Positions 20,077 to 42,383 of a DNA stretch of 64,000 nucleotides are shown one piece after another. Within the stretch, counting starts at the first letter, position 1, and each line of letters opens with the position of its first letter. The notes beneath the pieces were generated by a model. That model was given only the letters and a program-made list of their open reading frames with translations. It did no database searches and had not been told where the DNA came from. Source of the DNA: Hexactinellida sp. DTS-2022 (taxonomy: Eukaryota > Porifera > Hexactinellida); assembly GCA_028753945.1 (NCBI GenBank), contig JAPNXP010000017.1:1116001-1180000 (forward strand), read 5' to 3'. The position numbers were made by a program, and so were the translations under genes.

Positions 20077-20377
20077 CGAGCCCTTCGGTCTCGGACGCTT
20101 CGCGACGCATCACTCTCTCACAAAAGTCCTTCGCGACTTTTGTTCGTTCGTGTTAGGCACTACGCGATATAATTAACGGCCGCTTCGCGGCCTTTCTCTC
20201 CCCAAAAGCAATAATATTAATAATGAGTTCACCTGTGGCCGTGCCTAAAATTCATTTTTGGTTTTGATTAGTTACTGTAATTTGTTTTGGGAAATTATGT
20301 TTGTAAGTTATTCTCATTGCTCATTAGTTAATAATTATTAGTTAATTAATAGCTCAATCTATATATTAAAAGAGGAA

Positions 20378-20406
20378 TTGTTGTGTGTGTGTGTGTGTGT
20401 GTGTGT
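20378..20406. repeat. (TG)n microsatellite at Helitron-like 5' end
   Basis: Dinucleotide tract about 25 bases inside the 5' end of copy A. Homologous tracts of different length occur at 37835-37882 and, on the other strand, 42328-42360. Confidence 0.85.
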
Positions 20407-21102
20407 GGGGATGTTTGTCCGTAATTGATTGGAAAGACTACGAGTCCCAGAAAGCTGAAAATTTGTATACAGGGGTAATTTTGTACTGCGACAACGATCT
20501 ATTGGTTTTTGAATCAAAATAACGGGATTATGACGTCACAGTTGCGAAAAACAGATATTTTGTACTAGCTTCCCAATTTTGCTCCGATTTGTAGAAAATT
20601 CAAATCATTAGACGTACACTAAATTTCTACACCTGATAGCAGTTCACGAATTCCCATCTTTTCTTCTGATTGTGACACAGTTAATTAATTAGTCCCTGCA
20701 CTAATCAACCATAAATAGTGTATCGTACCAACACAGGTATAGCAAAGTGCAAAATCGATTTTCGATTGTGTTCTATTGCAAACAATTCAAAGTAAGAGTA
20801 ATTAACGAAAGTTATTAGTTAAAATGTATCATATTATTCTTAGCACTATGTGGGTGATCTGATTTGTTTGGTTAACAAGAATGCACTCGAGTAGTTAACT
20901 TCTCTGATGCATTGTTTATTTATTACACCTATATTGGCTTCCTTTTAATAAGACAATTAATGGAATTACGTAATTTCTAACCTATACTGAAATTAAGAAA
21001 TTAATTAAATCAAGGATTTAGGATCTGTCTAATTATGAGATTGATTATGTTTATTATTACGTACTATCAATTAAATCAAATATTTTACAACCCTGGATTT
21101 AA

Positions 21103-21184
21103 CCTCTGCATAATAATGGTTTAATGGTGAGAATAAGACCGCGAAGCGGTCTTATTCTCATCTTTAAACCATTATTATGCAGAG
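21103..21184. repeat. 80-base hairpin tipped by GCGAAGC
   Basis: The two halves (CTCTGCATAATAATGG... and its complement) pair over about 38 bases with two mismatches around a GAA triloop at 21143-21145. Equivalent hairpins lie at 21798-21878 and 41613-41693, always about 420-550 bases inside the 3' end of this Helitron-like family once insertions are removed. Confidence 0.85.
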
Positions 21185-21797
21185 ATTAAATCCAGGCTAA
21201 GTAAATTACTTTGCAATACAATATACTGAAATAAATAATTGGGTATAATTTATCAGCCACGGGTTTCAATTTATTTGAGCTAACAAGCTAACCTTTTAAT
21301 GGAGCTGAAATGAGCTACCTTAATTAAGAATTATTGAGCCAATATCATATATTATTAACTAATAATTAATAACTAATAAGTAATGAGAATAACATACATA
21401 ACACATCATTTCCTAAACAAGTTACATTAACGAATCACAACCCAGAATTAATTTAAGCGCGCCTTAAGTAGTGTGTGTAATATACTAGCCACAGGTTAAC
21501 TTATTTATTATTAATATTACTGTCTTTTAGAGGAGGGAAAGGCCGCGAAGCGGCCGTTAATTGCATCGCGTAGTGCCTAACACGAACGAACAAAGGTCGC
21601 GAAGCGACCTTTGTGAGAGAGTGATCCGTCGCGAAGCGACCGAGACCGAAGGGCTCGTAATTCTTAAAGGTAGCTGGTTCAGCTATATTAAAACGTTAGC
21701 TTGTTAGCTCAAATAAATTGAGACCTGTGTTGGTAAATTATACGCAATTAATTAATTTCAGTAATTTGCAAAGTAATTTACCAACTCTGGATTTAAT

Positions 21798-21878
21798 CTC
21801 TGCATAATAATGGTTTAAAGATGAGAATAAGACCGCTTCGCGGTCTTATTCTCACCATTAAACCATTATTATGCAGAG
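21798..21878. repeat. 80-base hairpin tipped by GCTTCGC
   Basis: Minus-strand counterpart of the 21103-21184 hairpin, belonging to the outer composite copy. The core GACCGCTTCGCGGTC sits at 21831-21845. Confidence 0.85.
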
Positions 21879-22151
21879 GTACATTCAGGGTTGCAAAATA
21901 TTTGATTTAATAGTAATAAACATTTATACATCCCTCCATAAACTATTTATTTTACAGGAGCTGGTTTAGTGAATTATTTAATCTAATTGATAGGAATAAT
22001 TAACATAGTAAATCTCATCGTTAAGCAGACCAAAATCTTAGATAAAGTTAGATTACTTAACTTAATTCATTTCTAGTAGAAATCCTAGGTTCTATTGATA
22101 ATCTTATAATAGAAGCCAATATAGGTGTAATAAATAAACAATGCATTAGAG

Positions 22152-22620
22152 CAGTGTTTCTCAAAACATTTCAGCGCCCGGGGGGCGCTGAAATGTTGTT
22201 GGGAGGCGGCGATCCAGCAAGGGGGCGCTAAGGGGTTACAGAACACGAAACAGAAATACGATCTCACGTCAAAACAGCGATAACATATTCCTAATATTAA
22301 GTAACTAACAAAAACTATATAAAACTGCAAGGAACAGAGCCTTAACAGTGATAATTACTATTGTATTGATTAACGAAAGCCAGTCCTCTCTATAATTTCA
22401 ATATAAATACGCACAAATCTAAACCGAATAGAATTGATAAACTCGATCGAATAAATGAATAGTAAAGAAATGTAGACTATAGTGCTGATTCATTAAATCA
22501 AATACGGATTTGTTAAACGAATACAAAATGTAATATTGAGACTTAGTGGAGGGGGGGGGCGGTATCGAGGGTAAATTGTTGACAGGGGGCGCTGTACTAA
22601 AAAAAGTTTGAGAAACACTG
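22152..22620. mobile_element. Non-autonomous hAT element
   Basis: Ends CAGTGTTTCTCAAA and TTTGAGAAACACTG with an exact 8-bp duplication CATTAGAG at 22144-22151 and 22621-22628. The related copy at 41960-41990 has the same site without the insert, giving an independent empty site. 469 bases, no transposase. Confidence 0.92.
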
Positions 22621-22694
22621 CATTAGAGACTCTAAGCGCATACTTGTTGACCAAACAAATCAGATTGATAGTAATATACTTATGTGATTGACGT

Positions 22695-23726
22695 CAGGGG
22701 CGTCGATTTGAAAAAAAGATAGGGGGGGCGAACATCATGTTGTCTCGTATTAGGTTGAAAAGCGTAGTTTCGCCCTGAGCTGGAATCGGTCATTACGTTA
22801 GGGTTGGCAGATTACCAAATTCCCGAACCAGGACAAAATTTATACTTTACAAAATATTCAAGTTACTTTAACTAAGAAGTGGCGTATCCCTCTGAAACTG
22901 GGGGGGCAAGCCTAAATTTTTCGGGCACGATTATCTTTCGCGAGATAATAAGTCGTATTTTAAATGAAATTTGTTTGCCAATAGACAAACTTGCTATTAG
23001 TGGAACATAACTAACATTAAATGTTTGCTTTTTGATAGAAAAGACCTGCTAATGGAAATAATTGAAACACATAACCTATAGTGGGTGGGACAATTTGTAT
23101 TTTTGCATTGGTTGAAGCAATGAAAGTTTCTTCACAGATTATTTAGTTGTACAGGCCCGGCGGAAGCAAAATTAAGGTGGTATGGAAAAATTATAGAGGA
23201 AAAACTGGTACGGCTATTTCCACGCCTGCGAATAGGTAGCTATAACAATTCTGAATGACTAATTCATTGAATAATTCCCGTGAATTATGAATAATTCATT
23301 AATAATTCAATAATTAATGAATTATTCATCTTAGGAAAAAAGTGGTACGGCAATTGCCGTACCTGTCGTACCAGCTGCGCCGGACCTGTTGTAGCATGCA
23401 AATTAACAATAAAACCGAGCGAGCGTTGCGAGCGGGAAAATTTTTAGACGTCCAAGCCCTATAGAACTTATAACAATTAACATCATTGAAACAAATCATA
23501 AGTTTAATAGTTGTATTTTTGGGTCTTGTCTTAACATATCACGCATTATTAATAAATAATTTCACGACACCAATAAATTATTAATTTTAGTGGAAATAAA
23601 AATGTAAGGTGCGCCAAATAATGGGGGGGGGGCGAAATGATACTCTCGCCCCCCCTGTATTGACATTGGGGGGGCATTCGCCCCCCTTGCCCCCCCCCCC
23701 CCCCCCCCCCAGGATCGACGCCCTTG
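22695..23726. mobile_element. Non-autonomous hAT element, 1032 bp
   Basis: Ends CAGGGGCGTCGAT and ATCGACGCCCTTG, exact 8-bp duplication ATTGACGT at 22687-22694 and 23727-23734. Contains a long C run (about 23688-23710). Ends resemble those of 10885-11652, 25170-25778 and 39743-39899, so these may be one diversified family. Confidence 0.88.
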
Positions 23727-23777
23727 ATTGACGTAAGCTAAATACATCACGAATAGATAAACTGATGGAAGCCAAAC

Positions 23778-24030
23778 CAGAGTTGGAATCGGGTTCGGGT
23801 TTCTCGGGTCGGGTCGGGTTCGGGTTAAGATTTGGATTTAGAATCGGGTTCGGGTTCGGGTTCGGGTTCGAAGTTGATCAGTTAATATCTACACTTATAT
23901 ACACTTCGGGTTCGGGTCGGGTTCGGGTTAAGATTCGGATTTAGAATCGGGTTCGGGTCGGGTTCGGGTTGAAGCTCGTCGGGTTCGGGTCGGGTCGGGT
24001 TCTGAAAAGTGGACCCGATTCCAACTCTGA
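23778..24030. mobile_element. GGGTC/GGGTTC-rich MITE, copy 1
   Basis: Ends CAGAGTTGGAATCGGGT and ACCCGATTCCAACTCTG. The body is dominated by tandem CGGGT and TTCGGG units. Flanks carry GCCAAAC on both sides, offset by a few bases on the right. Related to 35028-35275 and 51868-52116. Confidence 0.75.
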
Positions 24031-25169
24031 CTGCCAAACTGGATTAATCAAGTATGCAATTTAGGAAATATTGTAGGTGAAGATTAAATCGATCAAACCT
24101 CAATATGTGCAATGATGCAGCAATTGGAGGTTACATTTTTGTTATTGCCTGGCTCAGATTAAATGCGAAAATTATAAAAATTTCTAGGGACATGCAATAC
24201 ATTCTGTTTTATAATGTGACAAAATTATTTGTCGATTGAACCAAAAGTGTAAGAGCTGAATCCAAATTAGTTCCTACGTGACGTCACATTCCCATAAATC
24301 GGTATACGTGTGTCTCATTGTATGTTGTGTTATCATCTAAAATTGTGGGCGAATCGAATAAAAACAGAATGAGTTATCCCCAAATATGTGCGTTTATGAC
24401 GTCATAATCCCGTTATTTCGCTTAGAAAACCAATAGATCGTTGTCAGCGTGTAAAATTACCCCTGCATGCCAATTTTCAGCTTTTTAGGACTCGAAGTCT
24501 TTCCTATTAATTCTGGACAAACACACACTTGCACTTTGCTATACCTGTGTTAGTACGATACACTATTTATGGTTGATTAGTGTAGGGACTTATTAATTAA
24601 CTGTGTCACAATCAGAAGAAAAATGGGAATTCGTGAACTGCTATCAGGTGTAGAAATTTAGTGCACGTCTAATGATTTGAATTTTCTACAGATCGGAGCA
24701 AAATTAGGAAGCTAGTACAACAAATCTGTTTTTCGCAACTGTGACGTCATAATCCCGTTATTTTGTTTCAAAAACCAATAGATCGTTGTCGCAGTACAAA
24801 ATTACCCCTGTATACAAATTTTCAGCTTTCTGGGACTTGTAGTCTTTCCAATTAATTCTGGACAAACATCCAAACACACAACAATTCCGCTTTTAATATA
24901 CAGATAGATTGGGGACATGGTGTCAAATATATTCAATTGGTATATTTATTTGAAGAGTATTTAATAACTTTTCAAAGCTGGTTGAGATTGTGTTTGAGAG
25001 GCAAATAATTAAATAATGTCTTTGAAAGTATGTATTACAAGTTTTATGGTGATTATTGAAATGGTCCTTACTCCTTAATTGTGTGGGTACCCCGGATGGC
25101 CGGATCCAAAAGGGTGTGTACTGGGACATTGCTAAACCCCTATTTCTAAGTTAGGAATTGGATTCCACC

Positions 25170-25778
25170 CATGGGCTTAGCCATGGGGGGGCCTGGCCCC
25201 AAAAATTTTCACTTGGCTCCCCCAAACTTTCTAAAATAACATTGAATAAGGATAGATTGAGGGTACTAATTACTAAAGCACTAAATAAGCTAAATTCGTC
25301 AGAGATTATCAGTTAGAAGTTAGCTTTCAACGGGTATTATAGGTAAACAAGTATGCTGAACACGAATTTCGCGTTTAGAAATTTATAATATGAATATTTA
25401 TTGTTGTTGTTTACACAAAATAGGTAAACAAATTAATGAAATTCAAAATCACCCTACAAGTTAGCTTTCAACGGGTATTATAGGTTAACAAGTATGCTGA
25501 ACCCGAATTTCGCGTTTATAAATTTAAAACAGGAAAAATAAGTTAAAACTATGGAAATCTTATAAAGGGGTGTATATAACGTCCCTTTCTACCATTTTCC
25601 ATGGCAGAAGGGTGAGGAGTAAGGCCGCACAGCGGCCGTTAACTTGAGGTGCGTAGCACCGATCTGTCGCAAAGCGACCGAGACCGGAGGGCTCGTGAGT
25701 TAATAAATCAATTATAAATTTGAAATTTTATCTAAATAATGGCCCCCCTCCCAAATATTTTTGGTGGCTACGCCCATG
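25170..25778. mobile_element. hAT element with a Helitron-like 3' fragment inside
   Basis: Ends CATGGGCTTAGCCATG and GGTGGCTACGCCCATG with an exact 8-bp duplication ATTCCACC at 25162-25169 and 25779-25786. Inside, about 25315-25695 is a plus-strand Helitron-like segment ending in GGGCTCG followed by T, with terminal hairpin GTCGCAAAGCGAC. It also has a tandem duplication containing TTAGCTTTCAACGGGTATTA. Confidence 0.85.
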
Positions 25779-25819
25779 ATTCCACCGAGGCACTACTTTG
25801 TGCTATTATAACTCTAAAC

Positions 25820-25961
25820 CAGAGATTCCCAACCTTTTTCAACCGTGGACCCCCTATAGACATTCTGTGGACCCCCTCCCATTGACCGTAATATATCCTG
25901 TGGATCCCCTACAGCCATCCGTGGACCCCTAAGTCCATGGACCCCAGGTTGGGAACCACTG
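25820..25961. mobile_element. Short hAT MITE
   Basis: Ends CAGAGATTCCCAACC and GGTTGGGAACCACTG, exact 8-bp duplication CTCTAAAC at 25812-25819 and 25962-25969. Internal GTGGACCCCCT repeats. An eroded relative sits at 3796-3881. Confidence 0.9.
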
Positions 25962-26243
25962 CTCTAAACTCTAAACTCCCCAATCATTCACACGAAACCA
26001 GAAGTTTCATAATTTACAGATTTCTCTCGCAGAGAGTGGTCCTGACTCCTCAGTTCTATCGAGCTTTGACAATTTCCAATACAACATTATGATCGATTTT
26101 AATGTTTTCTTAGCGAAAATAAATGTAGTATATAATAAATGGAAAAGTTCCAAAAAATATTAAATATAAAAATATGAGTAAATACTAAATACCCTATAAG
26201 TAAAGAAAGGAAAGTAATGTCAGTTACTGGGCTCTGTACTCCA

Positions 26244-28769
26244 TCAAACACAGAACCCTACTTCGGTTATCCAAGGAAGTTCATATTCATTCAACAGATC
26301 AGTTGACATGGTTTTCTTTGAGTCACCCAAAGGGCATGCAACTATACTCACCATATCTGAAAAGTCAACTGCTGACGTAGAACCCAAACGGTCGTAATTA
26401 GATTTTTTAAGTAGTTTGTTAGGATCAGTTAAAGACTCAATCATCAATGTACCCAGGCCAATATTAAAATCCAATTTAAATGCAGCACTAGCAACAACAT
26501 CTTCAGAGATATCTCCTGAAGAATGATCACTCAGAGTAGTACCCAGATACAGAGTCTGTGGATCCGAAAGATCGTAACAGCCTCCGTCACAGTACAGTAG
26601 ATTACCAATAACTCTCTGGCCAAGATAGGTGGAGTAACCTTCGGAAAATGCAAAATTGGGAGAAATCGGAGATCCATCATGGTCCCCACTTCCTGTTATC
26701 ACTGCGCCATTTCGCTCCAATAACAAATGACCAAATTCATGTAAGAGCACAGAATCATCGAACTCATCTGGATCCATAGGATTGCCTCCCACCGATATTA
26801 TCCCTTCATAAAAGAAAGAAGTGACATAATCCGTATCTTTCGCATATTTCCCAAATTCCCAATCTGCTTTACGCGGATAGTCTGTAACCTTGCCACCGTA
26901 CGCGAGATAGAGAGGGAGCATACGAGTTAAAGTGACCATTATGTGAAAGGCTCCTGAACCATCTTCCTCCCGTATCATCGAGTTTCTTGTTGCATTAGCT
27001 TCCGTGAGAGGGTTTATCGCCTCACTAACTCGATACACGTGTACATTTCCTACGTGGTCTGTCACTTCTATCTTGTTGTTTGAAGATAGGAACTCAACAT
27101 ACACATTGGCATCTCCCTCTTCAGTTCTGTAAGCAACAGAATATACTCCACTTCTAGAATCGTTAGCATCACGTACTACCTGAGAAGTGCCTAGAACGAT
27201 GCCTTGACTGTCTACTACCCTAACTATACTCCCCAGTGGATTCATCCTGGTCATAGGAGTCCGATAGCTCACTGTACCCACAACTAAGTACCGATCACAT
27301 TCGATAACGAACACCAAAATTTCTCTTCCAGATCCCTGTCCTCCTGAGCCTTCTTCTGATGGTGCAAATGTACCAGTCAGCGTTTGAGAAATGTTACAAC
27401 CATCCACCAAAACTTGGAAGTTAATCTGTTCAGTTACACCACACGCAGCAAAGAGATCAACCCTGACAACGTATTGTCCTGAAACTGCATTCTCGTAGTA
27501 GATATTCTCAGTTTTGTTATGATCAATGGTGCAGTTGGGATTTGAATCCAGATCTAGTGTTCCCTGTTGTCCAGATGAGGTCCTATTTCCATAGTATATT
27601 TCTTCATTGTTAGGATCGACTACATGCAGATCCAGGTCCACTTCTTTGTCCCAAGTTAATCTGACTAGAAGAGTCCCGATCTTTAACGAAGCGGTTGTCG
27701 TTTGAATCATTTGAATTGGTCCCAACTCCCCTGCATTATCCCTAAGGCGAATTAACATAGTTATCCGACTTCCACTCATTATCGCTCCACTGGGTAGAGT
27801 GAGCATGAAAGCCAATGTTTGGGTTCCTGAGTTTTGACTCTGAAGAGATGTGACTGGAATAATGAAGTGCTGACCATAGCCTTCAAACCCAACTAACACG
27901 TCACTCACGGCAGTGGTTTGACTAACCACAATCGGAATTTCTACACTTTGGCCTGTTGTGATGGATACCTCGAAACCCGGAGGAAGTGTGAATACCAATG
28001 CGTTGTCAATCGTGGCGGTTAATGGGAAACTTCGCATATCAATTATTCCTTCATCGATCGTGAATGGATTAGTTACTCCAGACTGGAAGTATATTTCTAT
28101 TCCTGGCACTATAAGAGTACGTCCCTCACTGCTGTACACTACCAAAGAGATTGAATGGAACCGTTCCTCCGATACGAAATTTGTAGGAATGGATAATGTG
28201 TCGGTTAAATAATCTCCCTTTTGTATGTCGGAAGTGGAGATGACAGGATACCCGAACAAAGAGGAATAGTCTGCTTCCATATAGGATGCAGTTCCAGAAA
28301 TTTCTACAGTAATCACAAATTGTAAGCCAGGGAAGATTTCTCGAGGATACTCTAAGCCTGCTACCGATATCCTCGGATCATCAACAAGAACGGTAATTTC
28401 CCCATATCCTCTCCTGTTGTCTTGGGAAAAGGCCACTATGGATATAGTATGGTTACCATCATCTAGGCCGAATGTCGAAATTGCTAAGTTTCTGGGAAAA
28501 GTTTTGTAAGTAACTTTCTCTACTCCATCCAAATAAACGTGTACATTTCCTTTTACTACTATGCCACTGGGTAATGCAAGTTGTAGATTAATGTAACCAT
28601 TAGAAAATATCTGTTCCGAAGAAATGGTACTGTTGATGTTAATTGCAAACTCTGGTTGAGGCTTATAAACTGTCAACAACAACACAATGATAACTAGTGC
28701 AACCACTAAAACTACCAATAGCAACACAATGCAAAGTAATCCAATCAAACATTTCTTTTTGGTGTCCAT
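26244..28769 (-). CDS. Membrane-anchored HEFGH zinc metalloprotease with DUF2135-like domain, copy 1
   Basis: Predicted type II membrane ectoenzyme; 841 residues, intronless. Residues 1-7 (MDTKKKC) would be cytosolic and 8-35 form a strongly hydrophobic anchor. Residues about 40-365 look like serial Ig-like beta domains. About 366-480 matches the DUF2135/YfaP-like pattern common in bacteria (LTWDKEVDLDLHVVDP, NPNCTIDHNKTENIYYENAVSGQYVVRVD). About 505-590 is another beta domain. The catalytic region has HEFGH at 677-681 and FSEGYS with Glu710 as the likely third zinc ligand (HExxH-28-E, gluzincin style). Substrate unknown. The paired copy at 47542-50067 differs at eight residues. A pyrimidine-rich CTTAG upstream of ATG could mark a 5' UTR intron. 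The architecture suggests acquisition from bacteria, which is inference. Confidence 0.85.
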   Translation of the reverse strand: MDTKKKCLIGLLCIVLLLVVLVVALVIIVLLLTVYKPQPEFAININSTISSEQIFSNGYINLQLALPSGIVVKGNVHVYLDGVEKVTYKTFPRNLAISTFGLDDGNHTISIVAFSQDNRRGYGEITVLVDDPRISVAGLEYPREIFPGLQFVITVEISGTASYMEADYSSLFGYPVISTSDIQKGDYLTDTLSIPTNFVSEERFHSISLVVYSSEGRTLIVPGIEIYFQSGVTNPFTIDEGIIDMRSFPLTATIDNALVFTLPPGFEVSITTGQSVEIPIVVSQTTAVSDVLVGFEGYGQHFIIPVTSLQSQNSGTQTLAFMLTLPSGAIMSGSRITMLIRLRDNAGELGPIQMIQTTTASLKIGTLLVRLTWDKEVDLDLHVVDPNNEEIYYGNRTSSGQQGTLDLDSNPNCTIDHNKTENIYYENAVSGQYVVRVDLFAACGVTEQINFQVLVDGCNISQTLTGTFAPSEEGSGGQGSGREILVFVIECDRYLVVGTVSYRTPMTRMNPLGSIVRVVDSQGIVLGTSQVVRDANDSRSGVYSVAYRTEEGDANVYVEFLSSNNKIEVTDHVGNVHVYRVSEAINPLTEANATRNSMIREEDGSGAFHIMVTLTRMLPLYLAYGGKVTDYPRKADWEFGKYAKDTDYVTSFFYEGIISVGGNPMDPDEFDDSVLLHEFGHLLLERNGAVITGSGDHDGSPISPNFAFSEGYSTYLGQRVIGNLLYCDGGCYDLSDPQTLYLGTTLSDHSSGDISEDVVASAAFKLDFNIGLGTLMIESLTDPNKLLKKSNYDRLGSTSAVDFSDMVSIVACPLGDSKKTMSTDLLNEYELPWITEVGFCV

Positions 28770-28831
28770 AATTAGCTATCTTTCTATCCTTTTCAGCTAT
28801 TATTCTAAGAAAAAAAAAACTCATATTATTA

Positions 28832-29024
28832 GGGGCCGTTTAAATGCTACGTAACGAGGGCAAAGGGTATAAACTATATGTAGTGTCACTAGTGTGTAGT
28901 TTTAGAATTACAGAAAAATTCAGTTAGGTTAGAATGATGTTACGTAACGTCGAAGGGCGTAAGTTATTTGTGACATACGCGTCTAAATTATGGGAATTTT
29001 GCGTACGTACGTTTGAACGGCCCC
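28832..29024. mobile_element. PIF/Harbinger-type MITE, internally deleted
   Basis: Ends GGGGCCGTTTAAATGCTACG and CGTACGTTTGAACGGCCCC flanked by TTA on both sides (28829-28831, 29025-29027), fitting Harbinger-type 3-bp duplications. It begins 62 bases upstream of the metalloprotease ATG. The right-arm copy at 46390-47479 is longer and carries a nested element. Confidence 0.8.
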
Positions 29025-29815: not shown

Positions 29816-29850
<35 letters not shown>

Positions 29851-29975: not shown

Positions 29976-30710
29976 TGGATCCGCCCCTATTTAGGTTCAT
30001 TTTGAATTTTAATAGATTTGTTTACCTCTTTTTGTAAACAACAACAACAACTACAAAAGTAACAGAAATTTGTGGACTTTAAATTCGAAATCAGCATACT
30101 TGTTTACCTATAATTTTACCCGTTGCCTGTTGGAAGCTAGTCTCGAGGTTCATTTTGAATTTTCAATAATTTCTTGACCTATTTTTGGAAACAACAACAA
30201 TAAAATATTTACAGTATATTAGAAAATTATATATACGAGATTCGTGTTCAGCCTACTTGATTACCTTTTACAACCCTTGGAAGTTATTCTTTATCTCAAT
30301 TCTAAATGCGGTTTCTATCCCCCTATGATAGCACTAATACAAACAAACAAACAAACTAATTAATAACAATCAAATTGTAACAATATACATAACTAACATA
30401 TACTTAATTAGTTTGAACTCACTATTCTAATGACTGGATTGTGTAAACTTTAGATGCTTGCTTAATTAAGTTGATAATTAAATTATTATCAAAATACTTA
30501 TATGGAGCTGAGTTACTGGTAACTGAAGTGGTTTTAATTTATGTCTAAATTGCATTTCTGAGCTTATGGGTCTTTTAGAATTCAAACACTTCCTTATATG
30601 GCAGTTCAGTTACCAGTAACTGAGCTCCATATAAGTAATCTGATTAAATTATAGGTGGAAGAAAATTTATAGATCAGTCAACAATTGCAAAAACATTGCA
30701 GTACACAGTT
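29976..30710. repeat. Inner inverted repeat, left arm
   Basis: Inverted relative to about 38834-39760. Contains two AGGTTCATTTTGAATTTT modules, AAACAACAACAA stretches and a (CAAA)n stretch of the Helitron-like family also in RBM39 intron 3. The left arm is interrupted by a MITE at 30487-30642 and then by the MULE at 30711; the right arm by 39118-39533. Confidence 0.75.
30487..30642. mobile_element. Small MULE-like MITE
   Basis: Inverted ends with ACTTATATGGAGCTGAGTTA and its complement region, plus GTTACTGGTAAC palindromes. A 10-bp duplication ATTAAATTAT flanks it (30477-30486, 30643-30652). The corresponding site in the other arm (about 38877-38890) lacks it, which supports a real insertion. 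Confidence 0.75.
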
Positions 30711-31060
30711 ATGGATGTGAAGTTAGCAGCAAGTCCAGCAGCAAAAAGTGAGCACGATGCATCTGCTTATAACTCCACTCTACCATTAACTGGCGGGATA
30801 AAATTTATACCACAGCTCTATCCCCCATGTAGGTTTATGATATTTCAATTTTTAGTCTCTAACACTAAAAACCACTTGACAGTGACAGTGCAAAAATGAC
30901 CCATTTTCACTAGATAATTATCCCACATCCAATTTGAGTGAGCACGATTCACCTGGTTATTACTCCACTCTACCATTAACTGGCGGGCTAAAATTTACTT
31001 CACAGCTCTATATCTTGTGTATGTTTATGCTATTTCAAAGTATCCATTTTCACCCCATAA
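30711..31060 (+). repeat. MULE 5' terminal and subterminal repeats
   Basis: First unit 30711-30890 is the TIR. A second, shorter unit starts near 30935 (GTGAGCACGATTCACCTGG, CTACCATTAACTGGCGGGCT). Such arrays are usually transposase-binding regions, which is inference here. Confidence 0.8.
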
Positions 31061-31687
31061 TGACCTATCATATAAATCTGCTTCCTTTAAAAATATTTCC
31101 ATATGTTAGTTCTAAACAATTCATGCAGAATACCTTTGTCGTATTAGGCTAGCTAAAACAAATCAATTGTTTATCATTAGTATTTTTACAGAAAATACGG
31201 ACGGCGGACGCGATTTTATTTTTATGTATATCCCATTAATATGCAAATAACATTATCCTATGCCAAACAATAAATATTAATTTTTAATTTAATTAGAAAA
31301 TCACCTGACAATAATACCCTAAAATACATGACTTATAAAATATTGATACATTAGGATTACTTTACCCAAGTTTATAGCTAATATCTGTACGATTATGTTC
31401 ATGAGATAATAATATAACATACCCGGACTGGGATGAAATTTGGGACGGATGGGGAGATAAATAAGTTATTTATTGTATATGGCCTTAATAGGTGATTTTA
31501 ACACTGACGTAGTCTGATGACTTGATGTGATGTTGATATCTAATATGGCTTCCTATTACTATATCAAAATTGATTTATACTGCAATTGCTATAATTATGG
31601 AATGCATGTTTTATATTCAATTTAAAAGTCTGTTATTTTTATATCTATTTTACTAAATCCGAATATTGTTTCTATTTCTTTGCAATT

Positions 31688-33939
31688 ATGTTTGCTCCTT
31701 GCAAACGGCTTACTAAAATTTATAGCTTTCACACTCGAAATCTCCCAAAATCAATAATTTGCGAAGTTAACCTTCTTTCTAAGTATATCATTTCCTATCT
31801 TTCTGGGATGAGAACTTTGCTTGTCTTATCTCTTTTGCTGATAATTGCTGGTGATATCGAGGTTAATCCAGGGCCTACAGATGGTAAGTGTATGTTTATA
31901 GATTATACGTTCGATGTTTACATTATTACTTTTAGAGATTGAAGAACACAAACATAATCAAGGAATACAAATATCTACTAGTATTGTAGCTGCAATATCT
32001 AAGCTAAAACCACAAGGCTCTAGCATTTTGAATAATCTTGAGACAACAAGAAATTGGCGTGATCCTTTTTCTTTTTGGGGAAAGTTGTCGAAATCTGTGT
32101 ATGGCCGAAATCGCTTACAATTCAGAGCAAAGCTTATGAATATCTGGCGTAATAACAGTTACGACATTCACTTACCGAATCAAATTGAAGTGGATTTCAG
32201 TTGGACAATGTTGCACAGTGTATGCAATAGTTTTAATAAACATAACCTAGAAGATTATCTCAAATCTTGTTGGAAATTCATTAATTCACAGAATTCCAAA
32301 GATTTACCTAGAACAATTATTCACATTTGTACAGCACATATTATGAATCGTTTGAGCTATAAACTTAGTCGTAACTTCAGAATTGAAAAACGAAGAAAGA
32401 TAATTTTAATCTTTATTATGGCACGCATGGTTAGTTCGACAAGTTTGGACGAAATTAATCAGCTCTGTATTTCACTGTGTATGACATGTTTGTCTAAGAA
32501 ATATCATCCCGAAATTCAAAAATATTTTCAGAAGCAGGATAACGCGATCAGCTTAAGCTGTGGAGAAGATTTAAATCTCGATCATGTATATTTGTTAGAG
32601 CTAGATGAAGAACTTCCGAATAATTTAGGTGATGGTAATACTTACAAAACAAGATCTCCTTTTGGTATCTTTTTCCAAAATGAACTCAAAAACTGTAAAA
32701 GATTTGTTGATGAATTGGAAACCAAAAACAAATCAGATAAATTGGAAGAAAATGTGTATTTTCTACCAGAATTACCCTTATTCTTAATTACATATTACAT
32801 GCCGATATGCCCTCCTGGTCAGGAATAATATTGGGTCCAAGTTTGCACCCTAATAAATCAAGAATCACATTTACAAATGCTATTGCTGAGAATTGGATGA
32901 GATTTCTTAAAATTACAATTCTACAGAATGAATCAAAAATAAGACCAGGTGATTTCATCCGTAAATTACGTGAAGGTATTGTTGGAAGAATCAAAGCATT
33001 TAATTTTGCATTCGAGCCATTGAGCTCCAAAATTTTCAAGAGAGTAAAGAAGCAAGTTGAGAATGATGATCAAATTGAGGAGGTTTGGAATAAGAAAAGT
33101 ACAGGAAGCAAAGCTATTTTAATCCTGGAAAAGTTATTCAATAATTCGGATGCTCTGATACCAAAGTCAGCAAGGATAACTAGAATTACAAAACAATGTA
33201 AAAGCACTTGCTCTGAAGATTTTTCTTTTATCACCATAAAACGGTTAACAGAGGACACTTCACTGAATGCTGGCAAAGAATTGAGTAAACTAGGGCAAAT
33301 TGAGAATTCTGTATCTATAGTAGGTATTGCAATAATTTATCTTGGATTATATGCGCCAGTTACTCCAAGTTGGCAGAAATCAAAATGCAAAGAACTCAAT
33401 CTGACGTATGCTACGGGTATTTTGTATGAAAACGAAGCGAGAGATAAATCCCTTGAAATTAGGCAGCTCATTCCGTCTCGAGAAAAAAGAATATCTCCAG
33501 ATGGTAATTGCTTATTTAGATCGCTTTCATATTTAATTGCAGGAACAGATCACCATCATAAAGAAATAAGAGAGTTACTCATACAACAAATGAAAGGAAA
33601 ATATAATGAAGTGTGCTCAAACTATTGTAGCGCTCGAAATGATTTAGTAACTGAGCTCGGTGTAACTCAGTACAAGAGTACCTTAAGATAACTAAGATGG
33701 ACAGATCTGGATCTTGGGGGACAGATATGGAGATATTTTTAGCAGCACTGATCCTTAAAACTGATGTATTTGTATACAAGGACGATGACCAATGCTGGAT
33801 GAAGTTTTCCGGTTATGGATTCACTGGTAAGAATTCTAGACCTGAACTAACTGAAGACAGGGTATATTTTCGATTATATTTGGACCATTTTCAGCCTGTA
33901 ACAAAAGTAAAGGATAGGAACAACATTCAAACCAAATGA
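31688..33939 (+). pseudogene. MULE transposase/OTU gene with N-terminal 2A-like motif, frameshifted
   Basis: Exon 1 from ATG 31688 (or 31808) to 31883 encodes a hydrophobic stretch (RTLLVLSLLLIIAG) directly followed by the 2A signature DIEVNPGP. A 52-base GT-AG intron (31884-31935) joins in frame to 31936-32828. There the transposase motifs FWGKLSKSVYGRNR, DFSWTMLHSV and IHICTAHIMN (the CxxH of MULE transposases) appear. The segment expected between the N-terminal part and DFSW, which normally carries the first catalytic Asp, seems missing. A frameshift near 32810 leads to 32807-33691 (WSGIILG, AIAENWMRFLK, RPGDFIRKLREG), then the OTU cysteine protease with SPDGNCLFRSLS. A second shift near 33690 precedes the rest of the OTU domain (GSWGTDMEIFLAALIL, DHFQPV with the probable catalytic His). 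Defective as transposase. The OTU catalytic residues themselves are intact but split across frames. Confidence 0.82.
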
Positions 33940-34059: not shown

Positions 34060-34783
34060 AAATGGATACAATGCTTTTGAAATAGCATAAACCTACATCG
34101 GAGATAGAGCTGGTATAAATTTTAGCCCGCCAGGCAACAGCAGAGTGGAGTTATAACCAGGTGAATCGTGCTCACTCAAATTGGATGTGGGATAATTATC
34201 CAGTGAGAATGGATCATTTTTGCACTGTCACTGTCAAGTGGTTTTGGGTGTTAGAGACTAAAAATTGAAATATCACAAACCTACATCGAGGATAGAGCTG
34301 TGGTATAAATTTCAGCCCGCCAGGCAACAGCAGAGTGGAGTTACAAGCAGGTGCATCGTGCTCACTCAATTTGGATGTGGGATAATTATCTAGTGAAAAT
34401 GGGTCATTTTTGCACTGTCACTGTCAAATGGTTTTGGGTGTTAAGAGACTAAAAATTGAAATATCACAAACCTACATCGAGGATAGAGCTGTGGTATAAA
34501 TTTCAGCCCGCCAGGCAACAGCAGAGTGGAGTTACAAGCAGGTGCATCGTGCTCACTCAAATTGGATGTGGGATAATTATCTAGTGAAAATGGGTCATTT
34601 TTGAACTGTCACTGTCAAGTGGTCTTAGGTCTTAGAGACTAAAAATTGAAATATCATAAACCTACATGGGGGATAGAGCTGTGGTATAAATTTTATCCCG
34701 CCAGTTAATGGTAGAGTGGAGTTATAACCAGATGCATCGTGCTCACTTTTTGCTGCTGGACTTGCTGCTAACTTCACATCCAT
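34060..34783 (+). repeat. MULE 3' subterminal tandem repeat and TIR
   Basis: Four units of about 178-200 bases in tandem (starts near 34085, 34268, 34463, 34655), each with AAACCTACATCG, GATAGAGCTG, GCCCGCCAGGCAACAGCAGA and GTGCTCACTC. The last runs into the terminal repeat ending at 34783. Confidence 0.85.
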
Positions 34784-35027
34784 TACACAGTTATCCTTTT
34801 CTGCTCCTTACCAAACTAATGGGCTTGATGAATCTACTAATACTAAGTCAATTCAACAGTAAGTTAGGATAAATCTACAGAATTAATCAGTCTGTTATAT
34901 TTACTATAATAATATCTGAACCATTATAAATGAATCGGTTACCACATACTCGGATACGACGTACCAATTTATATTCCCAACTAGGTACAGTGGATGCCGG
35001 TTTTAAGCACATCGGCGGGAACTGCAC

Positions 35028-35275: not shown

Positions 35276-35617
35276 TGAACTGTACTTAAACATGAATATT
35301 TGTAATTAATTTATTTTGTTAGTTTAGGTAAATTCACCCATTGTGCTCATAGGTCAAAGAACAAAGAATCCTGTTTGATTACAAGGACAATATTCAACAA
35401 AACCAAATGTAGATTTTCTGTAATAAGTATCGATGCAATTTATAATATTATCATATTAATTAAAGATAAATTAACCATTGGGATATTTTACAAGGTTGCG
35501 CAACTATGAATCCTTTAATCAGTAATCTAAAATTATCAAGCTTATAAATTTCTTACCGTATTACACAAGAGCTGTATAACTTTCTAGATTTTCGCGTCAA
35601 ATTTGGTTACTCTGGCA

Positions 35618-36036
35618 CAAGGGTGGGGTTGGTTAACCGATCTGAGCTACGGTTACAATTCTATTTCTCGCCACGGTTAACCGGTTAACCGCCCATCCTA
35701 CTCAATACAATAAATCCTTTATAAAAATTTGATTATACTACAGAATAAGACTCAGCTGTATAAAGTATAACTGCATAAGTATATTAACTGATACATTTCG
35801 TGCTTTAGGTAAATTTAAATCAATGTTGTCTAAGAAAATTTATTAAGTGGTGATGAGAAATGGATTTAGGACAAACATATTCTGATAAAATTCAAAAATT
35901 TTAAATACTTTATACATTAATTTCCCAATAACTCTGCTGATATTCAACAGACCGGCTAACTGGTGAATATAATCTCTAACCGTCAACCGATGTCAGCAAC
36001 GGTAACCGGTTAGCCGGTTAACCGAATCCAGCCTTG
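35618..36036. mobile_element. hAT MITE with GGTTAACCGGTTAACC motifs
   Basis: Ends CAAGGGTGGGGTTGGTTAAC and GTTAACCGAATCCAGCCTTG. 8-bp flanks CTCTGGCA (35610-35617) and CTCTGGCT (36037-36044) differ at one base. Remnants of the same family are at about 29343-29385 and 45638-46062. Confidence 0.78.
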
Positions 36037-36039
36037 CTC

Positions 36040-36719
36040 TGGCTGGCAGAATTTGAGTTATTAAGTGGGTCAAAAATGGATTCGGTTTATCAATTCAAAT
36101 TTTCACTATTCTGATAATTGTGTCAAAATATTTTACGTGAATGTATTTATATCACGCACGTAGTGGATATATATATTGCATGCACTTTTTAATATTCTAG
36201 CAATACACTCTTACAATATATATATAAGTTATCCCCTCAGTTAGACAGTTACCCTCATATATTAAAATATTTTGGTAATTAATTCTCCGCTTAACTGAGT
36301 TTAATTCATACTTCAGCCAAAGTGACCCAATTAATCGGAGTCGAATATACGTCATAAATTAATAATACTGTTATTATTTCTTATAACAGTATTGTTCACC
36401 TCGGTTGTATAGTACTTGATGTATCTAGAGCAAATATAAATACCAAGTTACTAAGCAATCTGTGCACACCAAGGTTTCTAACTACAACGATCATCCCTGT
36501 TTTCTAGTAAGTTATTGCTACATTATTCTATTAATTCACAATTAAATTAGGAAGTTATATATGTACACTGGAGTTGCATTATTAGCAACTCGGGTTTCGT
36601 TGCAAAAATAGTTGCTAATAGGCGAAGACGCTAATAGGGGAATTTTCTTTAAAAAGAGTAAAACATGATTTAGTCGTTATTCGTCATTATCATTCTCTTA
36701 ATTAATATACAGTCAACTC
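36040..36719. other. Gene-free AT-rich spacer
   Basis: No gene or clear element boundary recognised, apart from CCGCTTAACTGAG / CCAATTAATCGGAG fragments near 36290-36345 that look like remains of a pogo-type MITE. Confidence 0.45.
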
Positions 36720-37081
36720 CCGTTATAACGAAGTGCTCGGCACCGTGGTTTCATTTCGTTATAAGCGGAGTTCGTTATAAGCAGAGTTAGATCAAAAAGA
36801 GTTCATTACAAGTTTAATTTCGTTGTAACCGGAGTTTTATATAAACAGATTTCGATATAATCGGAGTTCGTTATAAGCAGAAATCGTTATAACCGGAGTA
36901 AAATCAATAGTTTAAACTTTAGAGGCTACATGGGATTTAAATTACTTCGTTATAAGCGGAATTTCGTTGTAACCGAAGTTTATATAATGTAATAAGATAG
37001 AAGGATTTCCGGACCATTGAACGATTTCGTTATAAGCAGGTACTTTGTTACACCCGACTTGGTTATAACGGGAGTTGACTG
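36720..37081. mobile_element. pogo/Tigger-like MITE
   Basis: Ends CAGTCAACTCCCGTTATAAC and GTTATAACGGGAGTTGACTG, perfect for 20 bases, flanked by TA. Internally about ten copies of CGTTATAAGCGGAG variants in alternating orientation. Confidence 0.88.
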
Positions 37082-37683
37082 TAGTGAGAAATAGAACTGA
37101 TAATGAAAATACATATTATCCTCCTCACGGTATTTCTTGATCAGCTACTGGTTTTTATAAGAGCATACAGTTTTCCTGGAAATAGTGCAGTGAAAGGGGG
37201 CAATGGACCGAGAAAGGTATATAACAGAGACCCCACTTTGGAAAGTAAACACTTGTAAATGAGAATATAAATAATATAAAATACTTTAAAGTATTGAAAT
37301 CATGAGAGCATATAAGTCCTACTTGGAAAAATGACCAAGTAAGATGAACAACCTAAATATGTCGACACAAAACGTACGTGTAAGCGCTAGTATATAGTTA
37401 ACCATTATTATTATTTTGTACGAGTAATGTAAATGCTGTTCTTCAATTAGTAACTGAGTTGCTTCAAAGTGAACTTTTTGTTCTTCTATTAGTAACTATG
37501 TTGAGTTGCTTATACGGGAACAGATCTCCACTTCACGCCATAAAATAGGCTACTAATAAACAAATAATATTGCTAATTTGCTATTAATTAAGCGAGTTGC
37601 TAATAGGGGAACTTGACTTTATAGAATTCCCATGCTTTTGATCGGGACCTATAAATTGGTTGATAATAGAGCAATGTTGTTCA

Positions 37684-37760
37684 CGAGCCCTTCTGTCTCG
37701 GTTCGTTCGTGTTAGATACTACGCAACGCAATTTACGGTCATTCTGCCAACTGAATACTT
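37684..37760 (-). mobile_element. Helitron-like 3' end fragment (minus strand)
   Basis: Plus strand CGAGCCCTTCTGTCTCGG preceded by A, then CGTTCGTGTTAGATACTACG: the 3' terminal block of the family on the minus strand, missing the penultimate hairpin pair. Confidence 0.65.
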
Positions 37761-37829
37761 AGCGCAAAAGTTAATTGGTTGTAAATTGTAAATAGGTTAC
37801 TAATAGAGGCGAGAGGCGAGAAGAGCACA

Positions 37830-37845
37830 ATTGTTGTGTGTTTGT

Positions 37846-37885
<40 letters not shown>

Positions 37886-38524
37886 AGAATTAATTGGAGA
37901 CTACGAGTCCCAGAAAGCTGAAAATTTGCATCCTAGGGTAATTTTGTACTGCGACAACGATCTATTGATTTTTGAAACAAAATAACGGGGTTATGACGTC
38001 ATAAAGGCACTTATTTGGGAATAGCTCTTTCAGTTTTTATCCGATTCGCCCACAATTTTAGATGGCAAGACAACATGAAATGAGACACACGTATACCGAT
38101 TTATGGGTTTTATGACGTCACGTGGGAATTATTAATAATTATTATTATTATTGCTTTAAATTCATTGCACATATTCACATATATAATCACTGCACATATT
38201 GAGGTTGGTGATTACCTGCTGGCTCCACCTGCATGATTTCAGTTAGTTAGATCTATTAGTGATTTATTAATAGCATACACATATATGCATAAGTTTAGAT
38301 ATTAATATTAAGATATGCATAAGTGTTCATATAAATTCCTATTTGAACTAGATAAATCTTTTCTCTATTCTGTTTCCTACCTCACGCACTCACGGTGGGT
38401 AAGGCCGCGAAGCGGCCGTTATTTGTATTACATAGTGTCTACCACGAACGAACAAAGGTCGCGAAGCGGCCTTTGTGAGAGAGTGATCCGTCGCGAAGCG
38501 ACCGAGACCGAACCGAAGGGCTCG
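37830..38524 (+). mobile_element. Helitron-like element, copy D (5' end degraded)
   Basis: Plus-strand copy with (TG)n near the 5' side, then GACTACGAGTCCCAGAAAGC, and an intact 3' block with hairpins GGCCGCGAAGCGGCC (38404) and GTCGCGAAGCGAC (38491), ending GGGCTCG followed by T. The TCTATATATTAAAAG start is not preserved. Confidence 0.72.
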
Positions 38525-38791
38525 TAATATTAAAAGTCGATTGTTGTGTGCTTATGCTGATTTCGAATTTCGCATTTACGAATTTCTAATATGAATATTT
38601 GTGGTTGTTGTTTACATAAATAGGTAAACAAATTAATGAAAATTCATAATCAACCTAGGAATTAGCTTTCAACGGTAAACAAATTCAAACTATGGAAAAT
38701 GGTAGAAAGGGTAAGGAGTAAGGCATAGCGGCCGTTAACTTGAGGTGCGTAGCGCCGATCCGTCGCAAAGCGACCGAGACCGAAGTGCTCG
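38525..38791 (+). mobile_element. Helitron-like 3' end fragment (plus strand)
   Basis: Shares TAGCTTTCAACGG, GGCCGTTAACTTGAGGTGCG and GATCCGTCGCAAAGCGACC with 25315-25695, and ends GTGCTCG followed by T. A GCAAAGC variant replaces the GCGAAGC hairpin core. Confidence 0.65.
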
Positions 38792-38833
38792 TTACTATTA
38801 TTCTCGCTTTGAACCCAATCTATAATATTGCTT

Positions 38834-39760
38834 GTTAGATCATGACTGTAAAAATTCGCAAAATTATATTCTTCCACCTATAATTTCATTATCAACTTAA
38901 GCAAGCATCTAAAGTTCAAACTAATTAAGTATATGTTAGCTATGTATATTGTTACAATTCGATTGTTATTAATAGTTTGTTTGTTTGTTTGTTTGTACTG
39001 TATTAAAGTGATAAGGGGATAGAAACCGCATTTATAATTGAGATAAAGATTAACTTCCAAGGGTCGTAAAAGGTAATCAAGTATGCTGAACACGAATCTC
39101 GTATATATAATTTATAATATTACCAATCCAATCCAATCCAATCGACAATGCAATCCAATCGAGCCAAATTTGGACAATCGGCAATCCAAATTTGGACAAT
39201 CGATTATTCGGATGACAATCCAATCGCAATCGACAATCCAAAATGTCATCGATATTTTTGGATTGTTTCTCCGATTTTTTTCGATCGTTTACTCCTCAGT
39301 ATTATATCAAAAAGAGTTATGTTTCATCATATGTTCAAACTTAAAACATATAACATTGGGTTTAATTGATGAGCAATTGAGCATTTTAAATTTTGGCATT
39401 ATTTAGATATTGAAAAAACAAACAATCGAAAATTCATCGATTGCAATCCAATCGATAAAAATCGAAGCAATCCAATCGATGAAAATGCAGCAATCGAAAA
39501 TCTTCTCGATTGGATTGGATTGGCAACCCTGGTTGTTTCCAAAAATAGGTCAAGAAATTATTGAAAATTCAAAATGAACCTCGAGACAAGCTTCCAAAGG
39601 GCAACGGGTAAAATTATAGGTAAACAAGTATGCTGATTTCGAATTTAAAGTCCACAAATTTCTGTTACTTTTGTTGTTGTTTACAAAAAGAGGTAAACAA
39701 ATCTATTAAAATTCAAAATGAACCTAAAGACTAACTTCCGAATAGGGGCGTATCCATTGG
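38834..39760. repeat. Inner inverted repeat, right arm
   Basis: Reverse complement of 29976-30710, interrupted by a CAATC-rich insertion at about 39118-39533 and abutting a hAT element at 39743. Confidence 0.75.
39118..39533. mobile_element. CCAATCCAATCC-rich insertion, probable hAT-like MITE
   Basis: Left end ACCAATCCAATCCAATCC, right end GGATTGGATTGGCAACCCTG. The right terminus GGCAACCCTG equals that of the hAT at 44873-45533. The left end seems to lack the terminal CAGGGTTG. Body is rich in AATCGA and CAATCG motifs. The inverted partner arm is uninterrupted at this point. Confidence 0.65.
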
Positions 39761-39899
39761 CGATTCTAGGGGGACCATGCTCCCCCCTTGAGATTTTTCA
39801 GTGGATTGAAAGTTCAGATATTGCAGTAAGATTTTTTCAAATACACCCCCACGTTATAAGTTTGGCCCCCACTTAGTAAAATTCCTGTATCCGCCCCTG
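39743..39899. mobile_element. Short hAT MITE
   Basis: Ends TAGGGGCGTATCC and GTATCCGCCCCTG. 8-bp flanks CTTCCGAA (39735-39742) and CTTCCAAA (39900-39907) differ at one base. About 45 bases of the same element persist at 29950-29990 in the opposite arm. Confidence 0.75.
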
Positions 39900-40348
39900 C
39901 TTCCAAATGTTAGAAAAGGTAAACAAGTAAGCTGATCACGAATTCAAATTTTTTTTTCAAATTTTTAAAATAAATAATTATTGTTTATTTAAAATAAGCG
40001 AGACCGTAGGGCTGGTTATAATTATTAAAATACATGGCTGTATATAAAAGTAGGGCTGAAACGAATATACCGAATATTCGAAAATTCGTTCGAAATGATT
40101 TTAACGAATATTAGATTGAATCAGATATTCGTTGTCTACTTTTGTCAGCAACATTACTTTTGTTTAGCTTGGAAAGATCGTAAATAGAAATTCCTACATA
40201 AACTAGCTGATTATTAGTTAAATCATGCCAATAGAAGCTAATACAAAGTATTTTCGGTTAATTGGGTCAAAATTATGAAATTTTAGTCAAAATTTGGGTT
40301 GATTGACTCAATATTTGCTTTTAAAAAACCTCGATTAAGCGGAGTTGA

Positions 40349-41142
40349 CTGCACAGTATATCTAAAATTGTTTGTTTGTTCCGAATTGATTGAAGAAATT
40401 GGAGGGTTTCCAATTCCAAATCTGATTTTGGGCATACAGGGGTAACTTTTAGTTCCTCCATGGCCTACTATATAATACGGCTAGATAAGTCAAGTATTTG
40501 CCATTTTATTTCCAGGCCAGTGTTTACTTTCTAATTGCTCGTAAAATAAATCACCTATTGTCATGGAATAAACTAAACTTAGGTTTTCAAATACGCTGGA
40601 AACATCTAAAATACTTTTGAGAATGATTTCTCATCGGATTTAACCACAATGACGTAATCAAATATACATACCCATATATGGTAATTAATACCACGGACTA
40701 CTAGATACCCGGACGCGACAAAGCCAAACCACAGTCAAAAATGCGTAGGCTGAACATTGTATGACTGAAAATATGGTCAATTCTGTATTTTTAGTCACTA
40801 AGGTATCTAACACAATCTTTGGGCGCTGAATTCAAAAATGACAATTTCAAGGTTCAAAACTCACTCCCCGCCCTAATTTTGGCAAAAAGGCGTGGTCACA
40901 CCCAAATATGGTCAATTCCATATTTTTGTTCTATTACTTCATCATAACACTAAATTCGCAATATCCTCTTAACTAGGAATGATATTGTTGAAAATATGAT
41001 TAATAAATTGTTCAGGTAAATATATATGACTACGTTACGGTCGTGACCTTCGGTATACAAGGCCTGACTTGCTAGGCGAAAATTTGTGTACCATGGATTA
41101 CTTAAAGTGCATTGAAAAATGGAGAATTGATCTTTATTCCAA
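40349..41142. repeat. Foldback, left arm part 1
   Basis: Starts TCTAAAATTGTTTGTTTG after A, a second Helitron-like 5' end that also appears inverted at 43497. From 40458 (CCATGGCCTACTATATAATA) to 41142 it is nearly identical, inverted, to 43895-44587. The arm is cut at 41142/41143 by Helitron-like copy B and resumes at 42384. Confidence 0.75.
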
Positions 41143-42325
41143 CGAGCCCTTCGGTCTCGGTCGCTTCGCGACGGATCTCTCTCACAAAAGTCGCTTCGCG
41201 ACTTTTGTTCGTTCGTGTTATTCACTACGCGATACAATTAACGGCCGCTTCGCGGCCTTTCCCTTCCCAAAAAGCTATATAGTATTAAAAAAATTTACTA
41301 TTCAGTTTCACCTGTGGCTAGTGAATTACACACTATTACTTAATAACGCGTGCCTAAAATTCATTTTGGGTTGTGATTCCTGTAATTTGTTTGGGGAATT
41401 ATGTTGAGTAAGTTATTCTCATTGCTCAATAGTTATTAATTATTAGTTAATTAATAGCTCAATAATTCTTAAGGATAGCTCGTTCAGCAATATATATTAA
41501 AAGGTTCAGCTTGTTAGCTCAAATAAATTGAGACCTGTGGTTGGTAAATTATTCGCAATTAATTATTTCAGTAAGTTGTATTGCAAAGTAATTTACTAAC
41601 TCTGGGTGTAATCTCTCCATAATAATGGTTTAAAGATGAGAATAAGACCGCTTCGCGGTCTTATTCTCACCATTAAACCATTATTATGGAGAGGTAAATC
41701 CAGGGTTGCAAAATATTTGATTTATAAATCGTAATAAAGTTCTACATCTCAATAAACAATTCTTTTTGCAGGAGCTGGGTTAGTGAATTATTTAATTTAA
41801 TTGATAGTAATAATTAACATAATAAATCTCATCGTTATAGGCAGAACCAAAAATCCTAGATTACTTAACTTAATTAATTTCTGTAGAAATCCTAGGTTAG
41901 AAATTACGTAATCCCATTGATAGTCTTATTATAGGAAGCCAATATAGGTGTAATAAATATACAATGCATTAGAGAAATTAACTACTCTAAGCGCATTCTT
42001 GTTAACCAAACAAATCAGATCACCCACATAGTGTTAAAAATAATAGGACACATTTTAACTAATAACTTTCGCTATGTAAGTTCGTAAAAATTGATAATTT
42101 TCACAAAGGTGTTCCATTATGTGTTGTCGATTTTCATATAAAATTTATACTAACGGAGTCAAATTTGCAAAAGTTATTAAGGAAAAGGTTACCGTGTCAT
42201 GTCATGCTCACAATATTTCGCTTAGAAAACCAACAGACCCATGTCGCTATGACAAACTACTCCTATATACCAAATCTCAGCTTTCTAGGTAGTATGGTCT
42301 TTTCAATTAATTACGGACAAACATC

Positions 42326-42360
<35 letters not shown>

Positions 42361-42383
42361 CAATTCCGCTTTTAATATATAGA
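41143..42383 (-). mobile_element. Helitron-like non-autonomous element, copy B (1241 bp)
   Basis: On the minus strand it starts TCTATATATTAAAAGCGG after A and ends GGGCTCG before T. The opposite foldback arm at 43885-43905 holds the uninterrupted site (TAATTATTGG), proving insertion between A and T without duplication. Hairpins GTCGCTTCGCGAC (41160 region) and GGCCGCTTCGCGGCC (about 41243) lie near the 3' end, and the 80-base hairpin is at 41613-41693. An (AC)n tract is at 42328-42360. No coding capacity. Confidence 0.87.
41613..41693. repeat. 80-base hairpin tipped by GCTTCGC
   Basis: CTCTCCATAATAATGG... pairs with ...CCATTATTATGGAGAG. Relative to 21103-21184, the outermost stem pairs differ in a compensated manner (GCAT/ATGC there, CCAT/ATGG here), so base pairing is kept although the sequence changed. 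Confidence 0.85.

Follow-up and report, generated by a model that had tools for sequence, protein, structure and literature searches.

Canonical Helitrons carry TC at the 5' end, CTRR at the 3' end and a hairpin 10-12 nt from the latter, and insert at A|T targets (the bar marks the element boundary); the targets are TT for Helentrons and T-rich for Helitron2 (PMC5148889). Within a 64,000-nucleotide stretch of the genome of Hexactinellida sp. DTS-2022 (G000:C9:1116001-1180000, here called the window), two short elements, copies A and B, are interpreted, with a probability of about 0.95, as non-autonomous members of a Helitron family ending in CTCG that is mobilised in trans by larger Rep-helicase elements with the same kind of ends.

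Three described systems come nearest. Helibat1/Helraiser (PMC4778049) has in common with the family described here a 5' TC, A|T insertion, a 3' palindrome, a Rep-helicase and the occurrence of both coding and non-autonomous copies. It differs in ending with CTAG and in having a single palindrome, of 19 bp, positioned 11 nt before the end, whereas the elements here end with CTCG, have a hairpin 17 nt away and a last 17 nt that can also fold, and have a partner with a C-terminal OTU domain. HELPO2 of Pleurotus ostreatus (PMC4289320) is similar in its AT insertion, Rep-helicase, subterminal hairpin and a terminal tetramer one base off CTRR, although it is fungal and has CTTG instead of CTCG. FoHeli of Fusarium oxysporum (PMC5148889) likewise has non-canonical termini, GAA-loop hairpins (at its 5' end) and self-insertions that give composites, but is of the Helitron2 type, with ends ATTTT or CTCCTGT, asymmetric terminal inverted repeats and another target. 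As a precedent for CTCG, the passages checked in Helitron-mentioning literature proved to be a primer and a CACTA end.

Copies A and B and their empty sites

Both copies start with TCTATATATTAAAAG, continuing as [AC]GGAATTG, and terminate in GAAGGGCTCG, of which GACCGAAGGGCTCG is the longer form (Table 1). A first-pass annotation of the window had proposed that each copy is missing from a related site, and both filled and empty pairs were recovered by alignment. The joined 120-bp flanks of copy A matched window positions 41349-41592 with 87.6% identity over 250 columns and an ungapped junction, and its joined 60-bp flanks aligned gap-free to two loci elsewhere (L075, 98.3%; L078, 97.5%; 120 columns each). 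The joined flanks of copy B were identical to 43780-44019 at 240/240 bases and matched locus L011 with 97.5% identity over 120 columns. The search was made within loci fetched from the genome, with at most two matches shown per element. At both insertion junctions A stands on the left, T on the right and zero bases are duplicated, as had been annotated together with the 5' TC; a 1-base duplication of T would be indistinguishable here, as is true of any A|T Helitron. No terminal inverted repeat was found in A or B by BLAST self-comparison, which repeats of 12 bp could escape.

All eight Helitron 3' ends of the window (those of A and B and six others) read CTCG with T as the next base. The annotated T flank of the six further ends was therefore present in each case, as was the deviation from CTRR, a one-base departure of a kind already published for HELPO2 (CTTG, PMC4289320). 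Because the related site of copy A lies within copy B, copy A appears to have inserted into another B-like element, and segments 20077-20357 and 21658-22151 on either side of it do align with copy B. The probable host element has its 3' end at 20077 and its 5' end at 24904, the latter with one mismatch and preceded by A. Copy B itself occupies one arm of a foldback-like inverted repeat (40458-44585; arms of about 1.07 kb, 99.6-100% identical) of which the other arm is empty; parts of this repeat are also present in L011.

Genome-wide occurrence of the ends

Across the assembly (112,398,167 bases in 18 contigs), the 3'-end pattern GAAGGGCTCGT occurs in 2791 copies, compared with 18 for the reversed pattern. 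The 21-base 3' end CGACCGAGACCGAAGGGCTCG has 1880 exact copies, and T is the next base in 1857 of them (98.8%). The 23-base A/B 5' end has 134 copies against 0, likewise far above chance, with A directly before 129 (96.3%). This search for ends and flanks had been proposed in the first-pass annotation, and its outcome extends the A|T rule from the two copies to the genome. Where both ends of an element could be read (n=23), A was on the left in 22/23 and T on the right in 23/23; five of these elements had been found by a pattern that contains the T, and for the remaining 18 the values are 17/18 and 18/18. A set of 62 approximate 3' ends comprised 59 with CTCG and one each with CTAG, CTTG and a misalignment, in a sample that fetching had enriched for CTCG.

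Rep-helicase partners

Copies A and B had been annotated as non-autonomous given that no Rep or helicase is present. The absence holds within the window, where tblastn with the 1902-residue partner frame described below (E up to 10) yielded only three matches, all short, the best covering 20 residues of the OTU part (8.8e-4) and the others having E values of 2.1 and 9.4. It does not hold for the genome, in which a Rep-helicase gene bounded by the same kind of ends was found. The Helitron_like_N profile has at least 151 genome matches, with 150 of 292 first-look candidates scored.

The first full-length partner (C1:2899280-2909992, minus strand) spans 10,713 bp in the form A|TC...CTCG|T, starting with ACTACA|TCTATATTATTAAATCTCGATTG and finishing with GACCGAAGGGCTCG|TACT. 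It was read in sequence except for 2901101-2902899, which lies beyond the coding frame. This frame of 1902 codons between stops matches Helitron_like_N (PF14214, 1.3e-63), PIF1 (PF05970, 9e-78), Pif1 2B (8.4e-18) and, at its C-terminus, OTU (2e-5) in Pfam, and contains the motifs HAH and YLYKYVYKG and a Walker A motif. The predicted union in one frame of a Rep (HUH, tyrosines) and a PIF1-like helicase is that of a Helitron. A second partner (C1:13279060-13289890, 10,831 bp) has the same ends within A|TC and CTCG|T flanks, is 100% identical to the first over the outer 701 bases at the 3' end and 98% over 1193 at the 5' end, and carries an open frame of 1930 aa where the Rep profile matches. There are thus at least two full-length partners, a lower bound given that 40 candidates were scored of 1770 and of 2733. 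Joined flanks of both were unmatched across the junction in fetched sequence, so that no empty site was recovered for either.

The last 34 bases of partner and A/B copies are 97% identical. At the other end, the connection is made by a relic at C12:958804, in which an A/B-type 5' end, 91.6% identical to copy A over 154 columns and preceded by A, is followed by frame-broken Rep-type coding sequence, five segments of which share 42-76% identity with the partner protein.

Just within the 5' end of the first partner are about six tandem repeats of 142 bp (L092:153-1047 = C1:2908952-2909846), which are also present in other genome copies. Another group of Rep genes, scoring about 104 bits against PF14214 (for example C1:5540541, C13:1365764 and C18:1631818), has at least 20 open frames of 1652-1709 aa among the matches listed, and these open frames suggest a recent burst.

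Folding of the 3' end

In single-stranded DNA folding, the terminal 100 bases of copy A, copy B and the partner each outperformed 200/200 shuffled sequences (z -4.3, -4.7 and -3.3, respectively), whereas the last 34 bases alone were unexceptional, 10/200 shuffles folding as well or better (z -1.8). The hairpin consists of 5 bp with a three-base loop and, where the first-pass annotation had placed it about 16 bases from the end, stops 17 nt from the terminus. Within the terminal 17 bases (CGAGACCGAAGGGCTCG), a CGAG is able to pair with the terminal CTCG, which would make a possible second hairpin reaching the final base; such pairing is suggested here as a reason why CTCG may be retained. No covariation was detected in the two hairpins, as the 62 approximate 3' ends are near invariant and no pair has switched to another Watson-Crick pair. 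The 30-base end is too conserved to reveal compensatory changes, and support for the terminal hairpin thus comes from sequence and folding.

Junctions suggesting head-to-tail stacking at TCTA|TAT

TCTA precedes 59 of the 134 A/B 5' ends, against a window-wide background of 177 in 12,995 A|T sites (1.4%). On the 3' side, the motif TAT(N)ATTAAA comes directly after 323 of the 2791 ends; it is the start of a Helitron minus its first four bases, TCTA (the open N admits a few other words). A 5' end shortened in this way (up to 7 edits) follows the 3' end of 14/29 A/B-type, 2/22 partner-type and 0/8 other elements, counts that come from fetched sequence and not from a random sample; in the same sequences it was present at 19/3964 random A|T sites. 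The targets of such nested junctions fall into three or more classes of 5' end (A/B-type, partner-type and another), and a single exact junction, of a GAA-loop end onto a partner-type start, has 101 copies in the genome.

Among 30 sampled A/B 5' ends, TCTA was on the left in 14, and the 3' side could be read in nine of these, being nested in five (L061, L067, L081, L086, L089) and non-nested in four (L065, L072, L082, L090). The 16 ends free of TCTA gave eight readable 3' sides and a ninth with a doubtful end (L074); two of the eight are nested (L078, L087), two borderline (L068, L079) and four non-nested. At L081, two TCTA stand in front of two shortened units; L067 and L089 also show two TCTA, with a single shortened unit visible there and the following one falling near the locus edge or past it. 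No oppositely oriented insertion came up in an exact search of the 134 5' ends; the search needed the exact target bases while the 59 needed just TCTA, so these counts are not fully comparable.

These junctions suggest that A/B copies often enter resident Helitrons one way, four bases within the 5' end (TCTA|TAT), and would thereby give head-to-tail stacks. The fuller proposal, put at slightly less than even odds, is that the A/B subfamily homes in one orientation to TCTA|TAT in the 5' ends of several Helitron subfamilies, leaving one TCTA per insertion as a count, possibly through an integrating intermediate that is guided to 5' ends where Rep has bound or has opened the DNA. A limited literature search, mostly not of full texts, found no report of a fixed, oriented insertion site within a Helitron 5' end.

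Partner-type 5' ends (L092, L095, L003, L011, L016, L018, L019) have TACA on the left in 5/7, unlike the TCTA of the A/B type, and the two subfamilies may prefer different targets.

Alternative explanations

The TCTA|T bias could be a plain sequence preference with no regard to Helitron 5' ends, an explanation considered unlikely though deserving weight. It would account for the four of nine readable TCTA cases without a recognised Helitron 5' end next to them (two of which, L082 and L090, are alike), and the other left flank of partner-type copies is in keeping with it. Such a preference does not predict the excess of shortened Helitron 5' ends abutting A/B-type 3' ends over random A|T sites, nor the absence of reverse insertions in the exact search given that AT is symmetric, and at the nested L078 and L087 the left flank is not TCTA, as if the target had been a decayed Helitron end. 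More doubtful still is an origin of the stacks as rolling-circle multimers or by unequal exchange instead of insertion into 5' ends. A composite unit can be amplified after one event, so that the stacking counts are of copies and not of independent events, and among 15 nested junctions 7/105 pairs are indeed more than 88% alike on both sides. Multimers should read CTCG|TCTATAT at their joints; instead the downstream units are without TCTA and many upstream units are preceded by an additional TCTA, L081 has its two TCTA ahead of two shortened units, and at least three types of 5' end have been targets.

With regard to class, A|T insertion without target duplication is seen at the empty sites of A and B and in the genome-wide flanks, and A, B and both full-length partners have the 5' TC of Helitron1. 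Protein, 5' end and target together make the family Helitron1-like, with CTCG in place of CTRR. An assignment of the short copies to Helitron2 or Helentrons (DINE-like) is very improbable: targets there are TT or T-rich (PMC5148889), against the A|T flanks of 1857/1880 and 129/134 ends, while the ends here begin with TC and the Pfam matches of the partner include no endonuclease domain. In its favour, the 3' ends are able to form more than one hairpin. The OTU domain was also counted for it, and OTU domains are found across varied Helitron groups. A reading of A and B as MITE-like members of a DDE transposon family is hardly credible, for although the two copies are short, non-coding and numerous, they lack both target duplication and, in BLAST self-comparison, terminal inverted repeats, and a Rep-helicase partner has the same kind of ends. 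The first-pass annotation had itself named target duplications or a partner encoding a DDE transposase as evidence that would speak against a Helitron; the empty-site pairs have no duplication and the partner encodes an HUH-type Rep with a helicase.

Several observations weigh against placing A and B in a partner-mobilised Helitron family. The 3' tetramer is not the canonical CTRR in any of the eight window ends or in either partner, 23/1880 3' ends are without a following T and 5/134 A/B 5' ends without a preceding A. The 5' end of the intact partners is related to that of A/B but different (81-83% over 47-48 columns), and no Rep element was recovered that both is intact and has exactly the A/B 5' end, the link being the decayed copy at C12. 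Clean empty sites were recovered in fetched sequence for only A and B among the 23 two-ended elements; of the other 21, nine had no match and 12 a self, gapped or partial match, the one for L011 showing a junction gap of 4 bases.

Proposed mechanism

What was read directly is the set of ends with their A|T rule, the empty sites, a gene-bearing partner and a 3' end that is conserved and capable of hairpins; the steps that would connect these are modelled on the Helitron family. The Rep (HUH/tyrosine) would nick at A|TC and the helicase unwind the element until halted by the 3' hairpins. The strand would then be cut after CTCG, and the element, probably circular, would enter an A|T site without duplication. 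For A and B, the partner Rep-helicase proteins would act on their ends.

Other features of the window

The window holds ordinary eukaryotic genes, encoding ribosomal protein L6, an actin-family protein and Ist1. Among named proteins, the best match of Ist1 comes from a glass sponge, Oopsacas minuta, with 76% identity, while four unnamed proteins (73-87%) rank higher; on the evidence of this one gene, the host is most likely a hexactinellid. An open frame at 32807-33688 has a weak OTU match under the Pfam cut-off (E 0.0074) and shares 60% identity with the OTU portion of the Helitron protein across 20 residues. An inverted pair of 2.6-kb repeats (26234-28867, minus strand; 47444-50079, plus strand), 98.9% identical, has an 841-aa open frame in each copy; no Pfam match was obtained with both frames scanned and one rescanned at E up to 5, and the pair is possibly a mobile element, perhaps undescribed. 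A tandem array at 34077-34747 (190-bp unit, 3.5 copies) is related to 30708-31073.

Table 1. Helitron features of the window (window coordinates)
Feature	Positions	Strand	Description
Copy A, complete non-autonomous Helitron	20358-21657	+	1300 bp, A|TC...CTCG|T, both ends read; empty sites at window 41452, L075 and L078
5' terminus of copy A (TCTATATATTAAAAGAGGAATTG)	20358-20380	+	One of 134 genome copies; same end on the Rep-coding relic C12:958804
3' terminus of copy A	21628-21657	+	Hairpin GTCGC-GAA-GCGAC, then CGAG.CC-GAA-GG.CTCG up to the last base; 34-base DNA fold, conserved 30-mer
Copy B, complete non-autonomous Helitron	41143-42383	-	1241 bp, A|TC...CTCG|T, both ends read; empty sites at window 43780-44019 and L011
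Empty counterpart of copy A target, within copy B	41452-41472	.	Joined flanks of A align without a junction gap
Empty counterpart of copy B target, other inverted-repeat arm	43885-43905	.	Joined flanks of B match 43780-44019 exactly
Probable outer Helitron around copy A	20077-24904	-	3' end at 20077; 5' end TCTGTATATTAAAAGCGG at 24904; interior extent inferred, may hold further insertions
Helitron 3' end CTCG|T	11998	-	Sequence read
Helitron 3' end CTCG|T	25695	+	Sequence read
Helitron 3' end CTCG|T	37684	-	Sequence read
Helitron 3' end followed directly by a second Helitron 5' end without its first bases (TAATATTAAAAGTCGATTGTTGTG)	38524	+	Head-to-tail nested junction; sequence read
Helitron 3' end CTCG|T	38791	+	Sequence read

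Implications

The word Helitron is absent from the main texts, supplements aside, of two glass-sponge genome papers and is unmentioned in the sampled part of the sponge and Hexactinellida literature. This CTCG family, with 1880 exact copies of its 3' end across 112 Mb, would be missed by a search demanding CTRR. With long Rep-helicase frames alongside thousands of matching 3' ends, this genome is a candidate natural test system, and the apparent one-way stacking at TCTA|TAT is relevant to target choice by Helitrons.

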